From Bacteroidia bacterium (GTDB lineage Bacteria; Bacteroidota; Bacteroidia; B-17B0; Aurantibacillaceae), in NCBI GenBank assembly GCA_016787445.1, contig JAEUTQ010000065.1, positions 1 through 64,000 of the forward strand: a stretch of 64,000 nt of DNA, read 5' to 3'. Position numbers and translations under genes: made by a program. The notes beneath the pieces are model-generated. The model ran no database searches. It saw only the letters and a program-made list of their open reading frames with translations, and was not told where the DNA came from. This document shows, piece after piece, positions 30,458 through 41,740 of the stretch; position 1 is the first letter of the stretch; each line of letters starts with the position of its first letter.

Positions 30458-30901
30458 ATGAGAACACTTTTCGCAACTCTAATTTATTTTTTCATATCAA
30501 CATTATCATTGGCGCAAAACAGCGCCAATGATATTTTAGGATACTACATGGACTCAAAAAGAGAAGCCATCCTAAAGATATTTGAGAAGAATAATAAATA
30601 CTATGGCAAATTAGTATGGATGAATATTCCGGATCGCGAAGATTATCTTAATCCGGATACAACTAAGAGAAAAGAAAAAATACTCGGACAAATTATCATG
30701 AAAGGATTATCCTTTAATGGCACCGATTCATGGGAAGGCGGCACCATCTACAACTCAAGAACCGGCAAAACCTATAAATGCAAAATAACAAGAGAACCAA
30801 GCGGGAACTTATTGTTTAGAGGTTATATTGGAGTTTCTTTAGTTGGTCAAACCGCTTATTTTGTGAAGGTTGAGTTTAAAGAGAAAAATTCCGGGGAATA
30901 G
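30458..30901 (+). CDS. DUF2147 domain protein, copy 1
   Basis: 147 residues with a signal peptide (1-19, ending LAQN). It follows the DUF2147 layout: start with ILGYYMDSKREAILKIFEKNNKYYGKLVWM, a turn with TGKTYKCKIT and the last strand GYIGVSLVGQTAYFVKVEF. It is a small exported beta-barrel-like protein of unknown role. Starts 1 nt after the BNR gene, so it is co-transcribed. Two related genes follow at 32243 and 32681. Confidence 0.85.
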   Translation: MRTLFATLIYFFISTLSLAQNSANDILGYYMDSKREAILKIFEKNNKYYGKLVWMNIPDREDYLNPDTTKRKEKILGQIIMKGLSFNGTDSWEGGTIYNSRTGKTYKCKITREPSGNLLFRGYIGVSLVGQTAYFVKVEFKEKNSGE

Positions 30902-30998
30902 TTCATTCACTTACCCAACCTTTACTGAATTTTGAACGTAAAGTACTTTGAGGATGCCGAAAATCGTTTAAGAGTAGGCTTATTAATACAGTTTTAAT

Positions 30999-32162
30999 AT
31001 GGAAAAAATCTACAAATTACGCACGTTCTTTTATCTGGCGATTATTTTATTTGCTTCACATTACACCATCGGACAATGTCTGTCTTCATTCACTTTTACG
31101 ACAGGAACCGGAGGGAATGTGAATTTTACTAGTACTTCAAGCGGCACTCTTGCCGGATTTACATACTATCAGTGGGATTTTGGTGATGGAGGCTTCTCAT
31201 CTGCAGCTGCACCAAGTCATAATTATATTGCTAATGGTGTTTATACGGTAAGTTTAACAGTCATTGTTGCAAATACAGGTACATGTGTTAATACTTCTAC
31301 TCAAACCATTAATGTTACATCCGCAAGTTGCACAACTGCGCTTAATTCAAGTTTTAATTATGTTGTGAATGCAGGTGGACAAGTAAATTTCACAAGTACT
31401 TCAACCGGCACGAACGCCAACACTTATCATCGCTGGTATTTTGGTGATGGAGGCATGGCCTTTACACCCAACACATCCCACACTTATCTTAATGGCGGTA
31501 CTCATCCTGTATCCTTAGTTTTAAGCGATAGTTTAGGGGTTTGTAAAGACAGTTTAACTCAATATGTGAATATTAACACCATTCCATGTACAGCAAATTC
31601 TACATTTACATTAGTACACTCAGGCTGTTGTCAAACTTGGTATGCAATTCCTGCATACTACGGAAATGTTTTAGGCGCAACTTGGAATTGGGGTGATGGA
31701 AATACATCCAACACACTTTTTACTTCTCACACCTATTCCGCTACCGGCGTTTACAATATTTGCCTAACCGTATCTGTTACGTGTGCTATGGGCTCAAATA
31801 CATGTAATAATTACAATATTTATAAAACAGAAGCCAGCATGTTGATGGCCACAGTTAATGTAGTCACATCTGCGCCAACAGGAATTCTAGAAAACAAACA
31901 ACAATTATCTCTTATTAATGCTTTCCCTAATCCAGCTAATAACCAAATAACATTTGAAATAAATGATTTGGAGGCTTACGATAACAATGCAATAATTAGA
32001 ATCTATAACATTCTTGGTCAAGAAGAATTAAAAAATGAAACATCATTGGATAGCGGTAAACTAACAATAGATATTCACAGCTTAAACGAAGGCATATATA
32101 CCTGTGAAATTAAAACTGAGAACAAAACTTTCACGAAACGAATAATAAAATCCTCTAATTAA
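30999..32162 (+). CDS. Secreted PKD-domain protein with T9SS type A sorting domain
   Basis: 387 residues. Signal peptide about 1-25, then three PKD repeats, each with a W-x-(F/W)-G-D-G core (WDFGDGGFSS, WYFGDGGMAF, WNWGDGNTSN) and a closing H-T/N-Y...V-x-L segment. The C-terminal about 80 residues are the type IX sorting domain: AFPNPANNQITFEI, then IYNILGQE and the GIYTCEIKTENKTFTKRIIK ending. It is therefore sent across the outer membrane and attached to the surface by the system encoded at 51-57 kb. Followed by a strong terminator. It probably acts as an adhesin-like surface protein. Confidence 0.92.
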   Translation: MEKIYKLRTFFYLAIILFASHYTIGQCLSSFTFTTGTGGNVNFTSTSSGTLAGFTYYQWDFGDGGFSSAAAPSHNYIANGVYTVSLTVIVANTGTCVNTSTQTINVTSASCTTALNSSFNYVVNAGGQVNFTSTSTGTNANTYHRWYFGDGGMAFTPNTSHTYLNGGTHPVSLVLSDSLGVCKDSLTQYVNINTIPCTANSTFTLVHSGCCQTWYAIPAYYGNVLGATWNWGDGNTSNTLFTSHTYSATGVYNICLTVSVTCAMGSNTCNNYNIYKTEASMLMATVNVVTSAPTGILENKQQLSLINAFPNPANNQITFEINDLEAYDNNAIIRIYNILGQEELKNETSLDSGKLTIDIHSLNEGIYTCEIKTENKTFTKRIIKSSN

Positions 32163-32163
32163 T

Positions 32164-32191
32164 AAAAAAGCCTGCAATTGCAGGCTTTTTT
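32164..32191. terminator. Terminator after the PKD gene
   Basis: Perfect palindrome AAAAAAGCCTGCAA/TTGCAGGCTTTTTT with flanking A and T tracts. Confidence 0.92.
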
Positions 32192-32194
32192 ATT

Positions 32195-32225
32195 TTTGCA
32201 CTTCTGGTATAATTCTCTAATTTTA
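32195..32225 (+). promoter_or_regulatory. Promoter of DUF2147 copies 2 and 3
   Basis: TTTG (32195-32198), 19 bp, TAATTTTA (32218-32225, 7 of 8 to TAnnTTTG), 17 nt before the ATG at 32243. Confidence 0.5.
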
Positions 32226-32242
32226 ATTCAAAATAAAGAATC

Positions 32243-32668
32243 ATGAGAATTGCATTAACATCTTTACTATTACTAATTCATTTATTAATAGCCTCTCAAA
32301 ATAAAGCCAATGATATTTTGGGTTATTATATGTCGCCAAGCGGTAAAAGTATTTTGAAGATTTATGAAAACAACGGCAAGTATTATGGAAAGCCTGTTTG
32401 GATGAAAGAACCGGAGATGCTGGACTCAAAAAATCCTGATGTAAGTAAACGCAACCAAAAAGTATTTGGATCAAATGCTATTCGCGATTTTGTTTTCGAC
32501 GGGAAAGATACTTGGGCAAAAGGATACATTTATGATCCGAATAATGGTAAAACATACGATTGCAAAATCACACGCGACGAAAAAGGAAACCTGAACGTTC
32601 GTGGCTATATTGGCATTTCCTTAATTGGTCGAACGGAATATTTTGTAAAAGTAGATTTTAAAGAATAA
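32243..32668 (+). CDS. DUF2147 domain protein, copy 2
   Basis: 141 residues with a signal peptide ending IASQ. It has the same blocks as copy 1 (ILGYYMSPSGKSILKIYE, YGKPVWM, NGKTYDCKITRDEKGNLNVRGYIGISLIGRTEYFVKVDF). It is clearly the closest relative of copy 3, which starts 12 nt downstream, so the two arose by a recent tandem duplication. Confidence 0.87.
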   Translation: MRIALTSLLLLIHLLIASQNKANDILGYYMSPSGKSILKIYENNGKYYGKPVWMKEPEMLDSKNPDVSKRNQKVFGSNAIRDFVFDGKDTWAKGYIYDPNNGKTYDCKITRDEKGNLNVRGYIGISLIGRTEYFVKVDFKE

Positions 32669-32680
32669 AAACATCTTCTC

Positions 32681-33103
32681 GTGAGAAGTTTAATTGCACT
32701 CATATTATTTCTCTCATTTCGATTCTCTCTTCCTGCACAAAATCATGAGCACCTGGGTTACTTTATGTCGCCTCAGGAAAACAGTATTTTTAAATTTTAT
32801 AAGCAAGGCGAAAAATACTTTGCGAAGATAGTATGGATGAAAATCCCCGAAAGAAAAGATACTTTGAATCCTGATTTAAGTAAAAGAAGTTTAAAAATAT
32901 TGGGCTCCATTCCCGTTTATGATTTTATTTTCGATGGTAAACACACCTGGTACAAAGGTCATGTGTATGATGCGAACACCGGTAAAACCTACAAAAGCAA
33001 AATCACGCGCGATGAAAAGGGAAATCTAATTGTAAGAGGTTACATTGGCTTATCTATTCTCGGAAAAACAGAATATTTTGTGAAAGTAGATTTTAAGGAG
33101 TAA
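32681..33103 (+). CDS. DUF2147 domain protein, copy 3
   Basis: 140 residues, GTG start. A signal peptide ends LPAQ. Same family blocks as copies 1 and 2 (HLGYFMSPQENSIFKFYK, KIVWMKIPERKDTLNPDLSKRS, TGKTYKSKITRDEKGNLIVRGYIG). It is co-transcribed with copy 2. I see no separate terminator behind it; the next 150 bp lead into the arginine leader. Confidence 0.87.
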   Translation: MRSLIALILFLSFRFSLPAQNHEHLGYFMSPQENSIFKFYKQGEKYFAKIVWMKIPERKDTLNPDLSKRSLKILGSIPVYDFIFDGKHTWYKGHVYDANTGKTYKSKITRDEKGNLIVRGYIGLSILGKTEYFVKVDFKE

Positions 33104-33177: not shown

Positions 33178-33211
33178 TTTTGGATTATTCAAAAATTATT
33201 TAAAATATTTG
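33178..33211 (+). promoter_or_regulatory. Arginine operon promoter with an ARG-box-like palindrome
   Basis: Near-palindrome TTTTGGATTATTCAAAA (33178-33194, one mismatched arm pair) resembles the TGAAT/ATTCA core of ArgR sites. It contains the TTTG (33179-33182) of a likely -33 element, followed after 21 bp by AATATTTG (33204-33211, 7 of 8 to TAnnTTTG). Transcription would begin about 33217. Regulation by ArgR is inference; no argR is in the window. Confidence 0.45.
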
Positions 33212-33216
33212 CCGCA

Positions 33217-33486
33217 TAATTTAAAAAGCAAAACACAAGAGCAACACAACAAAAAAAATGAAAACACTTAATTTCATTCTCTGCTCAACTACAATTAGTA
33301 GTAAAATCAGCTCCTTGAGCAAGAGTGTGTTTTTTTCAACAGCTAACCTGTTGTTTGTTTTACCCGTACGCCCCATTTTTTATATCCGACGTTGATTAGA
33401 GCCCGTTCTCTGATTAAAAACTAATGCTGCCGGTCGGCAGTGTTATTACATTTCCATTTTTTTTAATTCTCAAATTTTATTTGAAA
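33217..33486 (+). promoter_or_regulatory. Arginine operon 5' leader, putative attenuator
   Basis: About 270 nt without a conventional gene (the gene-free stretch is 33104-33486). It contains a 45-codon ORF (33258-33395), a 10-bp hairpin around its stop codon (33392-33417) and a second 10-bp hairpin (33422-33445, loop GGTC) with a T run at 33457-33464. The second hairpin is terminator-like, though its T run starts 11 nt late. Two short pairings compete with it: ATTAG of the first hairpin with CTAAT, and CCGAC (33386-33390, inside the last Arg codons) with GTCGG (33433-33437). This layout fits leader-peptide control, but it is unproven. Confidence 0.45.
33258..33395 (+). CDS. Putative arginine leader peptide (45 aa)
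   Basis: ATG is preceded by A/C-rich, G-poor sequence (CAACACAACAAAAAAA), the same start context used by argF' and gldL. The peptide begins MKTLNFILCSTTISS and ends VRPIFYIRR-stop, so three of its last eight codons are arginine (CGC, CGA, CGT) and there are none earlier. The stop codon falls inside the first hairpin of the leader. It has no recognised homologue in my knowledge. A chance ORF is the alternative; the placement of Arg codons and start context argue for translation. Confidence 0.4.
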   Translation: MKTLNFILCSTTISSKISSLSKSVFFSTANLLFVLPVRPIFYIRR

Positions 33487-34149
33487 ATGCAACATTTTGT
33501 TGTGCAAGTTGCCAATGAGCATCACTTGCATTATGCAGATCTTATCTGCAACGAAATGGAGTCGTCGGCAAAAGCCAGGGGAACCGGTATTGCCAAGCGT
33601 ACTCCAGAATACATCCGGCTAAAAATGCTGGAAGGAAAAGCAGTCATTGCCCTTAGTAAAACAGGCGAATGGGCAGGATTTTGTTACATCGAAACGTGGA
33701 GCCATGGTAACTATGTGGCTAACTCCGGACTCATTGTTTCTCCAAATTTCAGAAAAAGCGGATTGGCTACTGAAATCAAGAAGAAAATTTTTGAGCTATC
33801 GAGAGCAAAATATCCTGAAGCCAAAATTTTCGGTCTGACTACAGGACTAGCGGTTATGAAAATAAATTCTGATTTAGGATATGAACCTGTCACCTACTCT
33901 GAATTGACACAAGACGAGGCCTTCTGGAAAGGTTGCCAGAGTTGCGTGAATTTCGAAATTCTAAAAAGCAAAGACAGAAAAAATTGTTTGTGCACCGCAA
34001 TGCTTTACAATCCTGCTGAGAAAAACAAACCCCGATGGTTCGATTTTGTAAGCAAACAAAAAGTAATGGAACGCTTATTAAGAATTAAACAAACCAACTT
34101 TTTAAAAAAATTAAAAATAAAAAAAGAAGAACCTATTAATAGTTTATAA
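33487..34149 (+). CDS. GNAT acetyltransferase, probable N-acetylglutamate synthase
   Basis: 220 residues from the ATG at 33487 (MQHFVVQVANEHH); an upstream in-frame ATG at 33424 lies in the leader hairpin and adds an implausible hydrophobic run. The GNAT core includes the acetyl-CoA loop NFRKSGLATEIKKKIF. The C-terminal part holds a CQSC and a CLC cysteine pair, which could bind metal. Every other enzyme of arginine synthesis is encoded in the next seven genes, and no argA or argJ is present, so this is the only candidate for the first step, glutamate to N-acetylglutamate. The function is inferred from context. Confidence 0.72.
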   Translation: MQHFVVQVANEHHLHYADLICNEMESSAKARGTGIAKRTPEYIRLKMLEGKAVIALSKTGEWAGFCYIETWSHGNYVANSGLIVSPNFRKSGLATEIKKKIFELSRAKYPEAKIFGLTTGLAVMKINSDLGYEPVTYSELTQDEAFWKGCQSCVNFEILKSKDRKNCLCTAMLYNPAEKNKPRWFDFVSKQKVMERLLRIKQTNFLKKLKIKKEEPINSL

Positions 34150-34150
34150 A

Positions 34151-35374
34151 ATGAAAAACAACAACGTTATACTAGCATTCAGTGGTGGATTAGACACCAC
34201 ATTTTGCGCCATTTATTTAAAAAACGAACTCAATCTTAATGTACATGCCGTAACGGTTGATACAGGCGGATTTACCAATGAAGAAAAAGAAAAACTGGAA
34301 CAACATGCCGAAGCCTTAGGCGTTAGTTCATTTGAAATTATTGATGCTAAACCTGCGTATTACGAGAAAGTGATTAAGTATTTGGTATTTGCCAATGTAT
34401 TAAAGAATAATACTTATCCACTTTCTGTAAGTGCCGAACGGATAATCCAGGCATTGGCCATTGCTGATTACGCGAAACTCATGGGTGCAGAAAATATTGC
34501 TCATGGAAGCACCGGTGCAGGCAACGATCAGGTTAGATTTGATATGGCATTTCAAATCTTAACCCCAGAGGCAAATATCATCACACCAATCAGGGATCTT
34601 AAATTATCGAGACAACAAGAAATTGATTACCTGAAAAAGCATGGCGTAAACATGAATTTCGAAAAAGCTATTTACAGCATCAATAAAGGCATTTGGGGGA
34701 ATTCAGTTGGTGGGAAAGAAACACTCACGTCCCATTTATCCTTACCAGAACAGGCTTGGCCTACTCCAATTACAAAAACTCAACCTGAGAAATTAAAACT
34801 TGGTTTTGTTAAAGGTGAATTGAAAGAAGTAAATGGAATTTCGTATTCTGATCCTTTAAAAGCTATTGAAGCGTTAAATCAAATTGCCTCTCCGTTTGCG
34901 ATTGGAAGAGACATACATGTTGGTGATACTATTATTGGAATTAAAGGCAGAGTTGGATTTGAAGCGGCAGTTGCGCTGCTGATTATTAAAGCGCACCATG
35001 CACTGGAAAAACACGTACTAACCAAATGGCAATTGTATTGGAAAGATCAGTTAGCACTATGGTATGGTAATTGGCTGCACGAAGGTCAGTACCTCGATCC
35101 TGCCATGAGAGACATGGAAGCATTTTTTGAGAACACTCAGCAAAACGTTACCGGCGAAGTTTTCATCACCTTAATGCCATACAGATTTGTTATTGACGGA
35201 ATCCAGTCTGAACACGATTTAATGAATGATGCCTTTGGTGCTTACGGCGAGATGAATAAATCTTTTACCGGCGATGATGTAAAAGGATTCACGAAAATAT
35301 TCGGCAACCAAACTGCTATTTATTACAAGGTAAATCAATTACAAAACCAATTAATACTCGACAAAAATGATTAA
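34151..35374 (+). CDS. argG: Argininosuccinate synthase
   Basis: Joins citrulline and aspartate at the cost of ATP. 407 residues. The ATP-pyrophosphatase loop is AFSGGLDTT (residues 9-17), followed by AVTVDTGGF; GSTGAGNDQVRFDMA is the citrulline/aspartate-binding motif. It starts 1 nt after the GNAT stop and overlaps argC by 8 bp. Penultimate step of the pathway although second in the gene order. Confidence 0.95.
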   Translation: MKNNNVILAFSGGLDTTFCAIYLKNELNLNVHAVTVDTGGFTNEEKEKLEQHAEALGVSSFEIIDAKPAYYEKVIKYLVFANVLKNNTYPLSVSAERIIQALAIADYAKLMGAENIAHGSTGAGNDQVRFDMAFQILTPEANIITPIRDLKLSRQQEIDYLKKHGVNMNFEKAIYSINKGIWGNSVGGKETLTSHLSLPEQAWPTPITKTQPEKLKLGFVKGELKEVNGISYSDPLKAIEALNQIASPFAIGRDIHVGDTIIGIKGRVGFEAAVALLIIKAHHALEKHVLTKWQLYWKDQLALWYGNWLHEGQYLDPAMRDMEAFFENTQQNVTGEVFITLMPYRFVIDGIQSEHDLMNDAFGAYGEMNKSFTGDDVKGFTKIFGNQTAIYYKVNQLQNQLILDKND

Positions 35375-36344
35375 AGCAGGTATTATTGGAGGAGCCGGCT
35401 ATACCGGCGGAGAAGTAATCAGATTACTACTAAATCATCCCGACGTAGAACTTTCATTTGTACAAAGTGAAAGTCAGGAAGGCAAATTTGTGTACCAAAC
35501 TCATACAGATTGTTACGGAGAAACGGATTTAAAATTCACTAAAGACTGGGATAATACTATTGATGTAATTTTTCTTTGTAAAGGACATGGGGAGGCCAAA
35601 CAATTTTTATCACAAAACGCTTTTCCTGATAACACAAAAGTTATTGATCTGAGTCAGGATTTCAGGCACAAAAACTCAAACTCGATTCAAAATAAAACTT
35701 TTGTGTATGGCTTACCTGAACTCAACAAATCAAAAATTGAAACAGCCAACTATATAGCTAATCCCGGTTGTTTTGCTACGTGCATACAGCTAGCACTATT
35801 ACCCTTAGCGGCGCATAACCAATTGCATTACGACATCCATGTTACTGCTACAACTGGGTCGACTGGTGCAGGACAAAACTTATCTGCAACCAATCACTTT
35901 AGCTGGAGAAGCAATAACCACAGCGCCTATAAAACATTGATACATCAGCATGAAACTGAAATAAACAAATCCTTAGCACAATTACAGAATAATTATAACG
36001 GGCAGTTGTATTTTGTTCCTCAAAGAGGTGCATTTTCCAGAGGCATTTATTCGGTAACCTATGTAAAAAGTAATGAATCCTTAGAGCAATACATGAATTG
36101 GTATGAGGAATATTATGACAACGCAAGCTTCACCAGAATTGTTCCATTTGAGGTGGATGTGAAACAAGTGGTAAACACCAATAACTGTTTTATTTCACTT
36201 CATAAGGAAAAAGATCAACTCATCATTGTGTCGGCCATCGACAATTTATTGAAAGGCGCGGCCGGACAAGCCATTCAAAATATGAATCTGATGTTTGGAC
36301 TAAATGAAAAAAACGGATTAAAACTTAAACCATCTGCATTTTAA
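35367..36344 (+). CDS. argC: N-acetyl-gamma-glutamyl-phosphate reductase
   Basis: Reduces N-acetylglutamyl phosphate with NADPH. 325 residues. The Rossmann motif AGIIGGAGYTGGEVIRLL is at the N-terminus and the active-site Cys lies in NPGCFATCIQLALLPL, followed by the TTGSTGAGQ loop. It overlaps argG by 8 bp, which indicates translational coupling. The gap behind it holds a REP-like inverted repeat. Confidence 0.95.
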   Translation: MIKAGIIGGAGYTGGEVIRLLLNHPDVELSFVQSESQEGKFVYQTHTDCYGETDLKFTKDWDNTIDVIFLCKGHGEAKQFLSQNAFPDNTKVIDLSQDFRHKNSNSIQNKTFVYGLPELNKSKIETANYIANPGCFATCIQLALLPLAAHNQLHYDIHVTATTGSTGAGQNLSATNHFSWRSNNHSAYKTLIHQHETEINKSLAQLQNNYNGQLYFVPQRGAFSRGIYSVTYVKSNESLEQYMNWYEEYYDNASFTRIVPFEVDVKQVVNTNNCFISLHKEKDQLIIVSAIDNLLKGAAGQAIQNMNLMFGLNEKNGLKLKPSAF

Positions 36345-36364
36345 ATTAAATTAATAACACATCA

Positions 36365-36417
36365 CATTTCGACTCCGCTCAATGTGACAGCAATGTCAGT
36401 TCGAGCGGAGTCGAGAA
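36365..36417. repeat. REP-like inverted repeat, copy 1
   Basis: Arms TTTCGACTCCGCTCAATGTGACA (left; 23 nt, written here by its core CGACTCCGCTC) and TGTCAGTTCGAGCGGAGTC form a long imperfect stem around a short loop. It sits in the argC-argD gap. The GAGCGNAGTCGAG core recurs at 40467-40530 in the opposite order of arms. Such elements are widely repeated in Bacteroidota genomes as far as I recall. Confidence 0.75.
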
Positions 36418-36436
36418 CAAAAAGAAAAAGAAAAAC

Positions 36437-37582
36437 ATGAAACCATTTAATGTATACCCACTTCAAAACATCACACCTGTAAAAGCGAAAGGTTCGTGGT
36501 TGTGGGACAGTAACAATGAAAAATACTTGGATTTGTACGGCGGACATGCAGTTATCTCCATTGGGCACAGTCACCCTTATTATATTCAGAAAATAACGGA
36601 CCAATTACAAAACATTGCGTTTTACTCTAATTCGGTTATAAATCCATTGCAGGAAGAATTAGCTCAAAAACTTGGAGAGTTAAGCAGCTATACCGATTAC
36701 AATTTGTTTTTATGCAACTCAGGAGCCGAAGCCAATGAAAACGCGTTAAAGTTGGCGTCATTCTACAATGGAAGAAAAAAAGTAATTGCCTTCAGTAAAA
36801 GTTTTCATGGCAGAACTTCCCTTGCTGTGGCTACCACCAACGATGCCAGTATTCAGGCGCATATTAATTCACATGAAGTAATTTTTGTAGAATTAAATAA
36901 CGAAGAAGCGTTTATTGAAGCGATGGATGAAAGCGTTTGTGCTGTAATAATTGAAGGCATTCAAGGCGTAGCCGGCATTCAAATTCCTGAGAACTCATTC
37001 TTACAACTGATTGAGCAAAAATGTAAAGAGTTTAATGCAGTTTTTATTGCAGATGAAGTTCAATCCGGTTATGGTAGAACAGGAAATTTTTTTGCACACC
37101 AACACGCGGGTGTCAAGCCGGATTTAATAACAGTAGCTAAAGGCATGGGTAACGGATTTCCTATTGCCGGTGTACTTATCAATCCAAAATTCCAGGCTAA
37201 ATACGGTTTACTGGGAACAACCTTTGGAGGTAATCATTTAGCATGTGTAGCAGCAATCGCCGTACTCGATGTAATAAAAGAAGAACAACTAATTGAGAAG
37301 GCAAAAGCATTAGGAGAGAAATGGATGAACGAGTTAAAACAGATTGACGGAATAAAAGAAGTAAGAGGAAAAGGATTAATGATTGGATTGGAGTTCGAAT
37401 TTCCAATAAGCGAACTAAAAAACAATTTAACTTCTGAGCATCATCTTTTAGTAGGAACAGCGTCAAATAAAAATGTGATTCGTTTGCTTCCGGCTTTAAC
37501 GATTTCGGAGAAAGAAATAGAATTATTCAATAATGCGTTAGTTAAGAGCTTAGAAAACGCTAATATATTCTTAAAGTCATAA
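36437..37582 (+). CDS. argD: Acetylornithine aminotransferase
   Basis: PLP-dependent class III aminotransferase converting N-acetylglutamate semialdehyde to N-acetylornithine. 381 residues. Motifs: NSGAEANENALKLA, VIIEGIQGVAGI, FIADEVQSGYGRTG (cofactor Asp) and the Schiff-base Lys in VAKGMGNGFPIAGV. ATG preceded by an A-rich stretch. Start chosen at 36437 because the sequence MKPFNVYPLQNITPVKAKGSWL matches the usual argD N-terminus. Confidence 0.95.
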   Translation: MKPFNVYPLQNITPVKAKGSWLWDSNNEKYLDLYGGHAVISIGHSHPYYIQKITDQLQNIAFYSNSVINPLQEELAQKLGELSSYTDYNLFLCNSGAEANENALKLASFYNGRKKVIAFSKSFHGRTSLAVATTNDASIQAHINSHEVIFVELNNEEAFIEAMDESVCAVIIEGIQGVAGIQIPENSFLQLIEQKCKEFNAVFIADEVQSGYGRTGNFFAHQHAGVKPDLITVAKGMGNGFPIAGVLINPKFQAKYGLLGTTFGGNHLACVAAIAVLDVIKEEQLIEKAKALGEKWMNELKQIDGIKEVRGKGLMIGLEFEFPISELKNNLTSEHHLLVGTASNKNVIRLLPALTISEKEIELFNNALVKSLENANIFLKS

Positions 37583-37594
37583 CAAATAATCAAA

Positions 37595-37630
37595 CACAAA
37601 ACAACAAACACAAAACAACAAACATAAAAC
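37595..37630 (+). repeat. A/C-rich 14-bp tandem repeat before argF'
   Basis: Unit CACAAAACAACAAA occurs twice (37595-37608, 37609-37622) with a partial third. It fills most of the 55-bp argD-argF' gap and is nearly free of G. A similar G-poor spacer precedes gldL. Probably an unstructured translation start region. Confidence 0.7.
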
Positions 37631-37637
37631 ATCGAAC

Positions 37638-38636
37638 ATGAAACATTTTACCACCATATACGACGTAGTAGACCCCAATTCACTCATTGAGGATGCTATT
37701 CAATTAAAGAAAACACCCTACGCCTATTCTGACTTAGGAAAAAATAAAACCTTAGGATTAATTTTTCTTAACCCAAGTTTAAGAACCAGATTAAGCACAC
37801 AAAAAGCTGCACGCATGCTTGGCATGGAAGTGATGCTTATGAATCTCGATAAAGAAAGTTGGGCTATTGAATGGAACGATAATATGATTATGAATGGCAA
37901 TACAGTTGAGCACATCAAAGATGCGGCAGCTGTATTAGGTTCTTACTGCGATATTATTGGCATGCGGGCTTTCCCCTCTTTAACCAATCAAAAATTGGAT
38001 TACAGTGAAAAACTATTGGTGCAATTAATGAAATACTGCAATGTACCGGTTATAAGTTTAGAGTCGGCTACACTCCACCCCTTACAAAGTTTGGCAGATG
38101 CAATCACCATTAAAGAAAACTGGAAGCAGAAACACAAGCCAAAAGTTGTTTTAACCTGGGCGCCACACATAAAGGCTTTGCCTCAAGCAGTACCTAATTC
38201 GTTTGCGGAATGGATGACTAAGTTAGATGTGGATTTTACCATCGCTCATCCTGAAGGTTATGAATTGTGTGAAGATTACACAAAAGGTGCGACCATAGAA
38301 CATAATCAAGAAGAAGCTCTTAAAAACGCTGACTTTGTGTATGTAAAAAATTGGTCATCGTATACCAATTACGGTACTATGCCTGAAGTAAAAGAAAACT
38401 GGATGATGGACATGAGTAAATATCTTTTAACCAATAAAGCCGGAATTATGCATTGTCTACCTGTTAGAAGAGATGTTGAATTAAGCAGCAAATTGATTGA
38501 TCATCCTCATAGTCTAATTCAGCATCAAGCTTCAAACAGAGTGGTAGCAGCACAAGTGGTTTTAAAGAACATTCTAAGTAAACTACCTGCATCAGAATAT
38601 AAATCAATTGAACAACTTGAATTAGAGGAAGCATGA
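37638..38636 (+). CDS. argF': N-acetyl (or N-succinyl) ornithine carbamoyltransferase
   Basis: 332 residues. Carbamoyl phosphate loop is NPSLRTRLSTQKAAR, ornithine-side loop is MHCLPVRRDVELSSK, and SLESATLHPLQSLADAITI is the carbamoyl phosphate His motif. The insertion and TWAPHIKALPQAVPNS stretch mark the acylornithine branch rather than ordinary ArgF. The loop that sets substrate preference reads NGNTVEHI: Val stands where, from memory, succinyl enzymes have Pro and acetyl enzymes Glu. It makes acylcitrulline, which argE then deacylates. ArgB follows with an ATGA overlap. Confidence 0.92.
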   Translation: MKHFTTIYDVVDPNSLIEDAIQLKKTPYAYSDLGKNKTLGLIFLNPSLRTRLSTQKAARMLGMEVMLMNLDKESWAIEWNDNMIMNGNTVEHIKDAAAVLGSYCDIIGMRAFPSLTNQKLDYSEKLLVQLMKYCNVPVISLESATLHPLQSLADAITIKENWKQKHKPKVVLTWAPHIKALPQAVPNSFAEWMTKLDVDFTIAHPEGYELCEDYTKGATIEHNQEEALKNADFVYVKNWSSYTNYGTMPEVKENWMMDMSKYLLTNKAGIMHCLPVRRDVELSSKLIDHPHSLIQHQASNRVVAAQVVLKNILSKLPASEYKSIEQLELEEA

Positions 38637-39409
38637 AAACATTAACAATAGTAAAAATAGGCGGTAATGTTATTGATGATCAGAAATCTTTAAACAAATT
38701 TATTTCTGATTTTTCCAAATTAAAAGGTGCAAAGATTCTGGTACACGGTGGCGGCAAACTAGCTACACAGCTATCTCAACAATTAGGAATAGAAACTAAA
38801 ATGATAGATGGCAGAAGAATAACAGATTCCGAAACTTTAAAAATCACTACCATGGTTTATGCCGGTTGGATAAACAAAAGCATCACGGCGCAATTAAATT
38901 CTAAAAAAACAAAAGCCGTTGGTTTATGCGGCGCGGATGTAACATTAATTCCTGCTACTAAACGTAAATCAAAAAGCATTAATTACGGTTTTGTGGGAGA
39001 TATAATCGAAAATAAAATAAATACCGTTTTTATTTCATCACTGATAAATCAAAACATTGTTCCTGTCATTGCACCAATTACATCAGGTTATAACGGACAA
39101 TTATACAATACGAATGCTGATACGGTTACATCGGGATTGGCAACAGCATTAAGCAAAATTTATAAAGTAAAAATCATTTATTGTTTTGAAAAAAATGGTG
39201 TTCTAAACGGCAAAAAGGTGATAAGCAAATTAAATGCTCCATTATATGCGGAATTAAAGCAGAATAAAATCATTATTAATGGGATGATACCAAAACTTGA
39301 CAACGCATTTAATGCCTTAAAAAAAGGTGTTCATTCGGTAGTGATTGGTAATTCAAAACAATTACAAAAATTAAATCAAAATGGAGGCACAAACATTAGT
39401 ATCAAATAG
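38633..39409 (+). CDS. argB: Acetylglutamate kinase
   Basis: Phosphorylates N-acetylglutamate. 258 residues, amino acid kinase fold. Motifs KIGGNVIDD (N-terminal Lys/Gly loop), VHGGGKLATQLSQQLGI and NADTVTSGLATAL (ATP and substrate sites). Short form like E. coli, without the N-terminal extension of arginine-inhibited hexameric kinases, which hints that end-product control lies elsewhere. Overlaps argE by 29 bp. Confidence 0.93.
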   Translation: MKTLTIVKIGGNVIDDQKSLNKFISDFSKLKGAKILVHGGGKLATQLSQQLGIETKMIDGRRITDSETLKITTMVYAGWINKSITAQLNSKKTKAVGLCGADVTLIPATKRKSKSINYGFVGDIIENKINTVFISSLINQNIVPVIAPITSGYNGQLYNTNADTVTSGLATALSKIYKVKIIYCFEKNGVLNGKKVISKLNAPLYAELKQNKIIINGMIPKLDNAFNALKKGVHSVVIGNSKQLQKLNQNGGTNISIK

Positions 39410-40466
39410 CACACTTCTAACCGAAGATGCAATTGAACTGTTAAAACAATTAATTGCGACTCCTTCCTTTAGCAAAGAGGAAAGTAAAACTGCGGAGATT
39501 ATTTTTGATTTTTTGAAATCAAAAACCATTCAAGCAAACAAATACCTTAATAATGTTTGGGCTAGCAATTTGTATTTTGATGAAAGTAAACCCACTTTAC
39601 TATTAAATTCTCATCACGATACAGTTAAACCTAACAAAGGATACACCGTAAATCCATTTGATCCCATTGAAAGCGATGGCAAACTTTATGGCTTAGGAAG
39701 TAACGATGCCGGTGGTTGTTTAGTGAGCTTACTGGCGACTTTTCTATATTTTTACAATAAGCAAAATTTAAAATACAACATTGTATTTGCCGCCAGTGCC
39801 GAGGAAGAAATATCCGGAAACAATGGTATTGAAGCACTTTTACCACATTTAGGCAACATTGATTTTGGTATTGTGGGCGAACCTACGCAAATGCATATGG
39901 CCATTGCCGAGAAAGGTTTGCTGGTACTGGATTGTATCAATTATGGTAAAGCCGGACATGCCGCCAGAAACGAAGGTGACAATGCGTTGTATCATTCCTT
40001 ACAAGATATCAGTTGGTTTAAAAACTACGCATTCGATAAAGTATCAGAAGTATTAGGTCCTGTTAAAATGACCGTGACTTCCATTGAAACCGAAAACAAA
40101 GCGCATAATGTTGTTCCTGCTTCCTGCAAATTTGTGGTTGACATTCGGGTAAACGAATTATACACTTTCGAAGAAATTCTAAATATCACTAAACAAAATG
40201 TGAAGTGCGAAATTAATCCAAGAAGTTTGAGAATGCGTTCTTCTTCCATTTCATTAAACCATCCACTTGTTATTGGAGGAATAGAATTGAATCGAAATTA
40301 CTACGGCTCGCCAACCACAAGCGACAAAGCTCTGATGCCCTTCCCCACTCTAAAAATGGGTCCGGGTGACAGTGCACGAAGCCATACAGCAGATGAATTT
40401 ATTTATTTAAAGGAAATCGAAGAAGGAATTGAATTATATATAAAATTATTAGAGAAGATAATATAA
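39381..40466 (+). CDS. argE: M20-family acylornithine/acylcitrulline deacetylase
   Basis: 361 residues. Di-zinc metallopeptidase fold: NSHHDTVKPN (metal His, Asp), GSNDAGGCLVSLLAT (bridging Asp), AASAEEEISGNNG (catalytic Glu pair), VGEPT and the final metal His in ARSHTADEFIYL. Dimerisation domain in between (about 175-285). In this pathway it acts on acylcitrulline rather than acylornithine, because argF' comes before it. Start codon at 39381 lies inside argB. Confidence 0.9.
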   Translation: MEAQTLVSNSTLLTEDAIELLKQLIATPSFSKEESKTAEIIFDFLKSKTIQANKYLNNVWASNLYFDESKPTLLLNSHHDTVKPNKGYTVNPFDPIESDGKLYGLGSNDAGGCLVSLLATFLYFYNKQNLKYNIVFAASAEEEISGNNGIEALLPHLGNIDFGIVGEPTQMHMAIAEKGLLVLDCINYGKAGHAARNEGDNALYHSLQDISWFKNYAFDKVSEVLGPVKMTVTSIETENKAHNVVPASCKFVVDIRVNELYTFEEILNITKQNVKCEINPRSLRMRSSSISLNHPLVIGGIELNRNYYGSPTTSDKALMPFPTLKMGPGDSARSHTADEFIYLKEIEEGIELYIKLLEKII

Positions 40467-40530
40467 TGTCACGTCGAGCGAAGTCGAGACGTAAATACGC
40501 ACGTAAGTTCTCGACTACGCTCGAAATGAC
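40467..40530. repeat. REP-like inverted repeat, copy 2
   Basis: Arms TGTCACGTCGAGCGAAGTCG and rev-comp of TCGACTACGCTCGAAATGAC pair over about 23 bp around a 19-nt loop. It overlaps the argE stop region and lies in the argE-argH gap. Same core as copy 1 at 36365-36417. An in-frame ATG in it extends the argH frame. Confidence 0.8.
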
Positions 40531-40546
40531 AAATAATAAAAACAAA

Positions 40547-41740
40547 ATGAAAACAAAACTTTGGGAGAAAGAAATAAAAACCGATCAACTGATTGAGAAA
40601 TTCACAATTGGTAATGACAGAATAATGGACCTATTTATAGCGCCTTACGATGTAATGGCTTCGAAAGCGCATGCTAAAATGTTAAGCAAAGTAGGTTTAA
40701 TAACAAAAGATGAATCAGATCAGCTTATTAAAGGTTTAAACGAAATAGCCGAATTAATAGCTGAAGGTAAATTCAAAATAAACGAAGGCATTGAAGATAT
40801 CCACTCACAAATTGAATTTTATTTAACCGTAAGATTTGGCGAAACCGGAAAAAAAATTCATACAGCCCGTTCAAGAAACGATCAGGTTTTAACTGCTATT
40901 AAATTGTATTTAAAACACGAATTGGAAACTATAAAATATAAGTCTATTGAATTACAGAATTTATTTAATGAATTAGCACTTAAACATTCCGGTATAACAT
41001 TACCCGGTTACACCCACTTTCAGGTGGCCATGCCTTCGTCATTTGAGATGTGGTTAACAGCTTATGCTGAAAGTTTAGAGGATGATTTGGAATTGGTTCA
41101 AGCGGCCTACAATGTGTGTAATAAAAACCCACTCGGTAGCGCAGCCGGATATGGCACTAATTTTAAGATTGACAAAGAATTTACAACCAAAGAAATGGAA
41201 TTTGCCTCCTATCATAAAAGTGATGTTTATGCTCAAATGACCAGAGGTAAATCTGAAAAAGTAACCGCAATGGCTATTTCATCTATTGCGCATACACTTT
41301 CAAAATTCTCTTATGATGTGTGTTTATACATGTGTCAGAATTTCAATTTCATTTCATTCCCCGAACAATTTACTACCGGCAGCAGTATTATGCCGCATAA
41401 AAAAAATCCGGATGTATTTGAATTAATCAGAGCTAAAGGCAATGTTCTGCAAGGTTTACCCAACCAGCTTACTTTACTCACAAATAATTTACCAAGCGGA
41501 TATCACAGAGACATGCAAATAACCAAGGAATTAATTTTCCCTGCCATTGAACAATTAAAAGAATGTTTGGATGTACTGTTACATGTTTTGCCTTCACTCA
41601 AGGTTAATGTAAACAGCGCGGATGATGAAATTTACAAATACATGTATAGTGTCAATGAAGTTAATGACCTTGTCATGCAAGGCACATCATTCAGAGAGGC
41701 ATATAACATAATTTCCAAAAAAATAAAATCAGCCAATTAA
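40547..41740 (+). CDS. argH: Argininosuccinate lyase
   Basis: Cleaves argininosuccinate to arginine and fumarate. 397 residues from the ATG at 40547 (MKTKLWEKEI). The frame continues upstream to 40466, but those codons read the REP-like repeat (many Arg/Lys/Ser) and are not credible protein. Signature GSSIMPHKKNPDVFE (catalytic Ser loop), HTARSRNDQVLTA and TLPGYTHFQVAMP are present. Length is somewhat below the usual about 450. Last gene of the arginine cluster, followed by a strong terminator. Confidence 0.94.
   Translation: MKTKLWEKEIKTDQLIEKFTIGNDRIMDLFIAPYDVMASKAHAKMLSKVGLITKDESDQLIKGLNEIAELIAEGKFKINEGIEDIHSQIEFYLTVRFGETGKKIHTARSRNDQVLTAIKLYLKHELETIKYKSIELQNLFNELALKHSGITLPGYTHFQVAMPSSFEMWLTAYAESLEDDLELVQAAYNVCNKNPLGSAAGYGTNFKIDKEFTTKEMEFASYHKSDVYAQMTRGKSEKVTAMAISSIAHTLSKFSYDVCLYMCQNFNFISFPEQFTTGSSIMPHKKNPDVFELIRAKGNVLQGLPNQLTLLTNNLPSGYHRDMQITKELIFPAIEQLKECLDVLLHVLPSLKVNVNSADDEIYKYMYSVNEVNDLVMQGTSFREAYNIISKKIKSAN

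Follow-up and report, generated by a model that had tools for sequence, protein, structure and literature searches.

The Arginine Operon and Its Leader Region

The window analyzed here, a stretch of 64,000 nucleotides from a Bacteroidia bacterium of the family Aurantibacillaceae (host genome G000), harbors a complete arginine operon with the gene order GNAT-argG-C-D-F-B-E-H, as assigned by Pfam. A short ORF, hereafter the leader ORF, precedes this operon, in the interval that separates an upstream DUF2147 gene from the start of GNAT (33487). The features of the region, all on the plus strand, are the following:

33179-33182 and 33204-33211, +: putative Bacteroidota-type promoter read by eye (TTTG, N21, AATATTTG)
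33258-33395, +: leader ORF, 45 codons plus TGA, encoding MKTLNFILCSTTISSKISSLSKSVFFSTANLLFVLPVRPIFYIRR-stop, a peptide conserved in 13 family relatives
33261-33333, +: structured element within the ORF (MFE and covariation)
33261-33266/33328-33333, +: helix P1 (MFE)
33275-33286/33317-33327, +: helix P2, with one bulged base (MFE)
33288-33292/33298-33302, +: helix P3 (MFE)
33337-33353, +: short hairpin CAACAG/CTGTTG within the ORF, with a CAACT/AGTTG version in G008
33387-33395, +: CGA-CGT-TGA, the proposed stall site, from family comparison
33392-33417, +: hairpin 1, 10 bp, starting at the stop codon (MFE and local folds)
33422-33445, +: hairpin 2, 10 bp (MFE and local folds), found in 13 of 13 folded family members and covarying
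33446-33464, +: interrupted U-rich tail 3′ of hairpin 2, U-richer in relatives (TCTTCTTTTATTTTTTT in G002)
33470-33484, +: small AU hairpin just 5′ of the GNAT start, as TCAAA..TTTGA in several relatives and missing in others
33487-34149, +: GNAT-family acetyltransferase (PF00583), the first structural gene of the operon
34151-41740, +: argG, argC, argD, argF-like carbamoyltransferase, argB, M20 deacetylase (argE), and argH (Pfam)

The promoter elements TTTG and ATTTG were retained in the family alignment, and the transcript would start near 33217 if this putative promoter is used. The leader ORF begins with an ATG placed after an A-rich stretch and ends in RPIFYIRR-stop, and its only Arg codons are CGC-38, CGA-44, and CGT-45. 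An earlier note on this DNA had described exactly such a 45-codon ORF in an A-rich start context, with all Arg codons confined to the last eight, as well as the two 10-bp hairpins, and these observations held throughout, both hairpins being recovered in the MFE and in the local folds. It had also remarked that the T run came late, and in fact the 8-T run begins at 33457, 11 nt past hairpin 2, which has no canonical U-tract. A frameshift fusion of the leader with GNAT was excluded in the window, since a TAA at 33421-33423 lies in the GNAT frame.

A cluster of three small genes that look alike (147, 141, and 140 aa) lies ahead of the operon at 30458-33103; the third is the DUF2147 gene, and a gene encoding a 387-aa protein separates the first two.

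Conservation of the Leader in the Host Family

The leader peptide was matched in eight relatives (G007, G079, G002, G006, G077, G003, G008, and G080), with E values from 2e-21 to 6e-13, and five more divergent leaders were found at the same place in the family. Two of these, in G086 and G078, gave weaker peptide matches and both ended in VRPIYFLRR-stop, while the leaders of G061, G001, and G014 ended in ..VPVRAIYSIRR, ..VVRPCFSIRR, and ..TPTPFFIRR (upstream of GNAT), respectively. A search of the family for the GNAT gene recovered it in 17 genomes, among which the G034 locus was cut off, leaving 16 usable operons. A leader ending in RR-stop was present upstream of 14 of them, window included. 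At L271 (G026) and L272 (G012), a same-family GNAT was observed without an Arg-rich leader upstream, an apparent loss of the system.

The sequence CGA-CGT-TGA was identical in 12 of the 14 leader-bearing members, including the window, and was replaced by AGA-CGT-TGA in G061 and by CGA-CGC-TGA in G014. In G061, Arg codons 38 and 44 are both AGA, at positions where the other members carry CGC or CGA and CGA, respectively. This change from the CGN box to AGA, with arginine kept, is evidence for selection on arginine itself.

RNA Structure in and after the Leader ORF

The 270-nt region was found to fold better than all of 200 dinucleotide shuffles (z −3.35). Covariation was assessed in alignment A5, comprising 9 sequences and 38 pairs, in which 10 of the 38 pairs had changed on both sides, compared with 6.0 in shuffles. 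The covariation score was 0.246 versus 0.127 in shuffles, none of 500 shuffles reached it, and the slid controls were all ≤0.064. The signal came from P3, within the ORF, and from hairpin 2. P3 covaried at four of its five pairs, with P1 and P2 nearly invariant; codons 11-15, variable in sequence yet still forming a hairpin inside these nearly invariant helices, therefore indicate that the region is conserved as RNA.

Besides these helices, the synonymous sites of codons 19-25 (33312-33332, TCC TTG AGC AAG AGT GTG TTT) were almost invariant in close relatives, and AAG AGT GTG was kept even in divergent ones, a conservation that P1 and P2 explain only in part. At the peptide level, residues F33, P36, P39, and F41 were retained in the family despite varying codons. 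The pN/pS ratio of codons 18-45 was 0.37, with low rates for both kinds of change and with RNA structure overlapping these codons, so that amino-acid and RNA constraint on the ORF are not fully separable.

Compensatory versions of hairpin 1 were found in G003, G077, G061, and G001, and its 5′ arm includes the Arg codons in three members (G086, G078, and G061). A ribosome placed at codon 44, codon 45, or the stop would cover hairpin 1 with its footprint. Across 102 leaders, the post-stop region was more structured overall (mean z −1.5, p 8e-14). The pairing of the stop codon, however, was not raised (0.411 vs 0.398 in shuffles), which indicates that the placement of hairpin 1 at the stop belongs to the host clade and is not shared by the whole group.

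Distribution across Bacteroidota and Codon Usage

When the class was searched with a profile of the peptide alone, only chance matches were obtained outside the family, and one such match, in G371, was checked and rejected. The GNAT gene was used as the anchor of a class-wide survey of 170 Bacteroidia loci, in which an ORF counted as a leader if three or more of its last 10 residues were Arg and it ended 15-260 nt upstream of GNAT. Such a leader was present in 110 of the 170 loci, against 19 of 170 in antisense and 147 of 1700 in shuffled sequences (8.6%). The endings differed by clade, with RPxPFxVRR-stop in Chitinophagaceae, RQNxTPRI-stop in Pedobacter, PRRRPEC-stop in other Chitinophagaceae-like genomes, RRPILPRA-stop and RRRVYSPRV-stop in further leaders, and Arg-rich ends in Myroides and relatives. 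Leaders ending in PVRPIPRRR-stop, VRRRPFRA-stop, and VRPRPVRV-stop were also found outside the class Bacteroidia. Different clades carry unrelated RNA and yet the same Arg-rich ORF end. The CGA-CGT pair was present in all 29 Chitinophagaceae-type leaders examined, and the P, F, and V of their RPxPFxVRR motif were kept through synonymous change.

Codon usage at the leader ends was strongly skewed. Among 102 distinct leaders, the last ten codons used CGA for 32% of their Arg residues, versus 7% in the downstream arg genes (p 2e-32), and AGA for 6% versus 20%. TGA was the stop codon in 75 of these 102 leaders, against 41 of 219 in the comparison set (p 3e-21). Since the leaders share descent, these codon and stop p-values overstate the independent evidence. 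CGA is slowly decoded in many bacteria, and its enrichment therefore fits a stall site.

Other arrangements were observed after the leader stop in particular groups. Six loci (L098, L127, L130, L146, L154, and L168) share a conserved hairpin just past the stop, TGACAGG-ACGAnCC..ACCAnGGCC-CCTGTCA-GTGAA, whose loop (TAACCA, TCACCA, or TTACCA) covaries with that of the next hairpin, GGAnTGGTnATCC (TGGTTA, TGGTGA, or TGGTAA). This covariation could reflect a loop-loop contact or a pseudoknot, unlike the arrangement in the window. In L125, L148, L159, and other Pedobacter loci, a possible hairpin TCGTTA..TAACGA surrounds the start codon of GNAT, and the two post-stop hairpins may be linked by a short 2:3-type pairing (CTCC/GGAG, CTCA/TGAG).

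Relation to ArgR

The arginine repressor domain PF02863 was absent from the host genome, so that the operon of the window does not appear as one controlled by ArgR. In the class, this domain was found in 12 of 295 genomes, in several of which the ArgR gene adjoins GNAT, and had no match in the other 283. None of six examined loci with ArgR beside GNAT carried the leader, compared with 46 of 84 loci without ArgR (Fisher p 0.011), a complementarity that is supportive only, given that the ArgR sample is small and phylogenetically clustered. The remaining 38 of the 84 had no leader by the simple criterion used, which misses divergent types such as the Pedobacter TPRI ending. A leader system in place of ArgR would be a candidate answer to how arginine synthesis is controlled in most Bacteroidota, considering the 283 of 295 class genomes lacking an ArgR match.

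Proposed Sensing of Arginine by the Leader

The sensor half of the system, in which the C-terminal Arg codons of the leader peptide would control the arg operon, is strongly supported by comparative evidence, namely the phylum-wide conservation, the arginine kept through the CGN-to-AGA change, the CGA enrichment, and the absence of ArgR. The leader is very probably a widespread arginine sensor of Bacteroidota that would work by ribosome stalling across most of the phylum, and the 45-residue peptide itself probably serves no separate function.

The comparisons themselves show the ORF, its Arg codons, the hairpins, and their distribution; that the leader is translated, that ribosomes stall on it, in which direction the operon responds, and by what output is what we infer, the direction following from the function of the operon. 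The explanation that we regard as likely is a ribosome-mediated arginine leader, in which arginine would be sensed through a stall at CGA-CGT-UGA and transcription would be gated, in a non-classical way, by the hairpins past the stop. Under a shortage of charged arginyl-tRNA, the ribosome would pause at CGA-CGT ahead of the UGA, and also at CGC-38, and its position would decide the folding of hairpin 1, setting the share of transcripts that reach the arg operon. Under ample arginine, the ribosome would finish the peptide and depart, hairpins 1 and 2 would fold, and the polymerase would pause or terminate at hairpin 2. Under scarce arginine, the stalled ribosome would hold hairpin 1 open and expression of the operon would increase.

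A live alternative, which we nevertheless hold to be rather improbable, is that the leader acts as an arrest peptide of the kind exemplified by TnaC, SpeFL, and the fungal arginine attenuator peptide. The ribosome would then be stalled at the UGA by the nascent chain, with arginine or some metabolite related to it as the ligand, instead of by codon starvation. The retention of P36, P39, and F41 in the family and of P, F, and V in the Chitinophagaceae motif while their codons vary would be expected of such a peptide, as would the strong over-use of UGA stops. However, the same codons (18-45, those with the reduced pN/pS) also carry RNA structure and a nucleotide-level conservation that is unexplained, UGA is not universal, and the leaders of other clades have just Arg-richness in common (RRRP, PRI, RRR). 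A broader version, doubtful but with some plausibility, would be a Bacteroidota-wide arginine-responsive arrest peptide in which the nascent chain, the slow codons, and the stop together produce the stall at CGA-CGT-UGA, with a structured RNA output lacking a canonical terminator. To our knowledge, no arrest-peptide control via structured RNA without a canonical terminator has been known for bacterial arginine synthesis.

The Output Step and the his Leader as Control

Judged by its sequence, leader-peptide attenuation is present in the host lineage, since the same genome carries a textbook his leader. It lies upstream of hisG (locus L259, G000:C41, minus strand) and comprises the leader MKLMSHIHHHASLTQVGHDGIGI-stop, a strong antiterminator, and a canonical terminator, GGCTTACC-AAATAC-GGTAAGCC, followed by seven T. 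The arg leader could then be a classical attenuator of the trp/his type, in which a stalled ribosome lets the 3′ arm of hairpin 1 pair with the 5′ arm of hairpin 2, which otherwise forms an intrinsic terminator. This possibility was evaluated with the his leader as positive control. Equilibrium folding with ribosome masks was uninformative, as the his control failed it as well, and a co-transcriptional trap test was used instead, in which the ribosome footprint is masked and the RNA ends after the 5′ arm of the terminator.

In the trap test, the arm of the his leader was fully trapped with the ribosome at codons 8-10 (1.00, −15.2 kcal/mol) and barely trapped at the stop (0.08). In contrast, with the ribosome at codons 44/45 of 11 arg leaders, the hairpin-2 arm was trapped at only 0.03-0.55 and by at most −2.8 kcal/mol, through weak pairings that were not shared between members. 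When the ribosome was placed at codon 38, G079 (0.70) was the one member above 0.25. No conserved antiterminator formed on stalling at the Arg codons was thus detected in these 11 leaders. When the stalled and the cleared states were compared, the structure that changed was hairpin 1 and, in just two members (G000 and G007), an A-run/U-run pairing.

On the terminator side, hairpin 2 was conserved and covaried, but its tail scored 1.2-2.4 versus 5.27 for the his terminator. Canonical terminators between the leader and GNAT were uncommon (16 of 107 leaders), if still more frequent than in shuffles (1.9%). On these sequence-based grounds, namely the low trapping, the poor tail, and the scarcity of canonical terminators, a classical terminator/antiterminator switch is not supported for the arg leader. 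The order of the parts is indeed alike, hairpin 2 with its U-rich tail does score as a terminator under a loose scan, in the window as in three relatives, and the genome has a genuine attenuator at his, but the trap and tail results make the classical scheme unlikely. The translation-coupled attenuation proposed in the earlier note was supported in its sensor half and not in its hairpin-swap output: of the two alternative pairings suggested, CCGAC/GTCGG was lost in G002 and G006 and ATTAG/CTAAT was not kept in relatives.

For the ribosome-mediated leader, our leading guess for the output is a weak or factor-assisted (e.g., Rho) termination at hairpin 2, and an output through mRNA stability is possible. 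One genome holding both a textbook his attenuator and an arg leader devoid of the textbook switch points to an unrecognized output mechanism.

That the ORF is incidental and the region a structured, riboswitch-like RNA with an untranslated peptide is highly improbable, since, despite the strong nucleotide-level conservation and the covarying hairpin within the ORF, the frame is open to RR-stop in all 14 leader-bearing family members, Arg and Pro persist where their codons differ synonymously, clades with unrelated RNA share the Arg-rich end, and Rfam gave no match.

Comparison with Known Systems

No T-box or other cis-regulatory RNA was recognized in Rfam: the window had no match that reached a gathering score, and the leader regions had none at E ≤ 0.5. 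In open-licence full texts, no arginine leader peptide was found to have been described earlier for Bacteroidota, and the statement of the earlier note that no arginine attenuator of this kind had been described was uncontradicted there.

Among the closest known systems are the trp, his, ilv, and thr attenuators, represented locally by the his leader, which likewise have a short ORF whose codons specify the end product, a biosynthetic operon downstream, and hairpins in between; a coding-conserved short ORF with Arg codons ahead of an arginine biosynthetic operon is what was found here. Unlike them, the arg leader places its Arg codons right next to the stop, has a poor U-tract and no conserved antiterminator, and encodes a long conserved peptide with internal RNA structure. 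The fungal arginine attenuator peptide (AAP) is also a conserved peptide tied to arginine biosynthesis that stalls at the stop codon, the site proposed for the stall here. It differs in being encoded by a eukaryotic uORF that controls translation, and ligand-induced arrest would be shared with it only under the arrest-peptide alternative.

In the same phylum, a transcriptome study of Flavobacterium psychrophilum reports hints that amino-acid operons are preceded by leader-peptide attenuation, the same general idea, although the main text of that study names no arginine leader (PMC9723704). A survey of Actinobacteria reported finding no conserved regulatory RNA structure ahead of the arginine operons of that group and cited arginine T-boxes elsewhere (PMC1262725). 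The two nearest leaders with arginine codons so far described act on other targets. In Salmonella, the orf34/speFL leader of speF senses arginine by ribosome pausing at consecutive Arg codons and controls speF through Rho, folding, and RNase effects (PMC6386406). It is likewise a leader peptide with consecutive Arg codons upstream of the controlled gene, but it belongs to gamma-proteobacteria, its target is ornithine decarboxylase instead of arginine synthesis, and its key Arg codons are 12-13, not at the stop. The tiny rbfL leader of Staphylococcus aureus also has Arg codons near its end, at which pausing senses arginine limitation (PMC13009471). In contrast to the arg leaders, whose next start is 78-97 nt away, rbfL covers the ribosome-binding site and represses translation of a biofilm regulator. 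The Bacteroidota arginine leader, apparently undescribed before, would belong to a kind of system, sensing through the codons of a leader peptide, that is already known.
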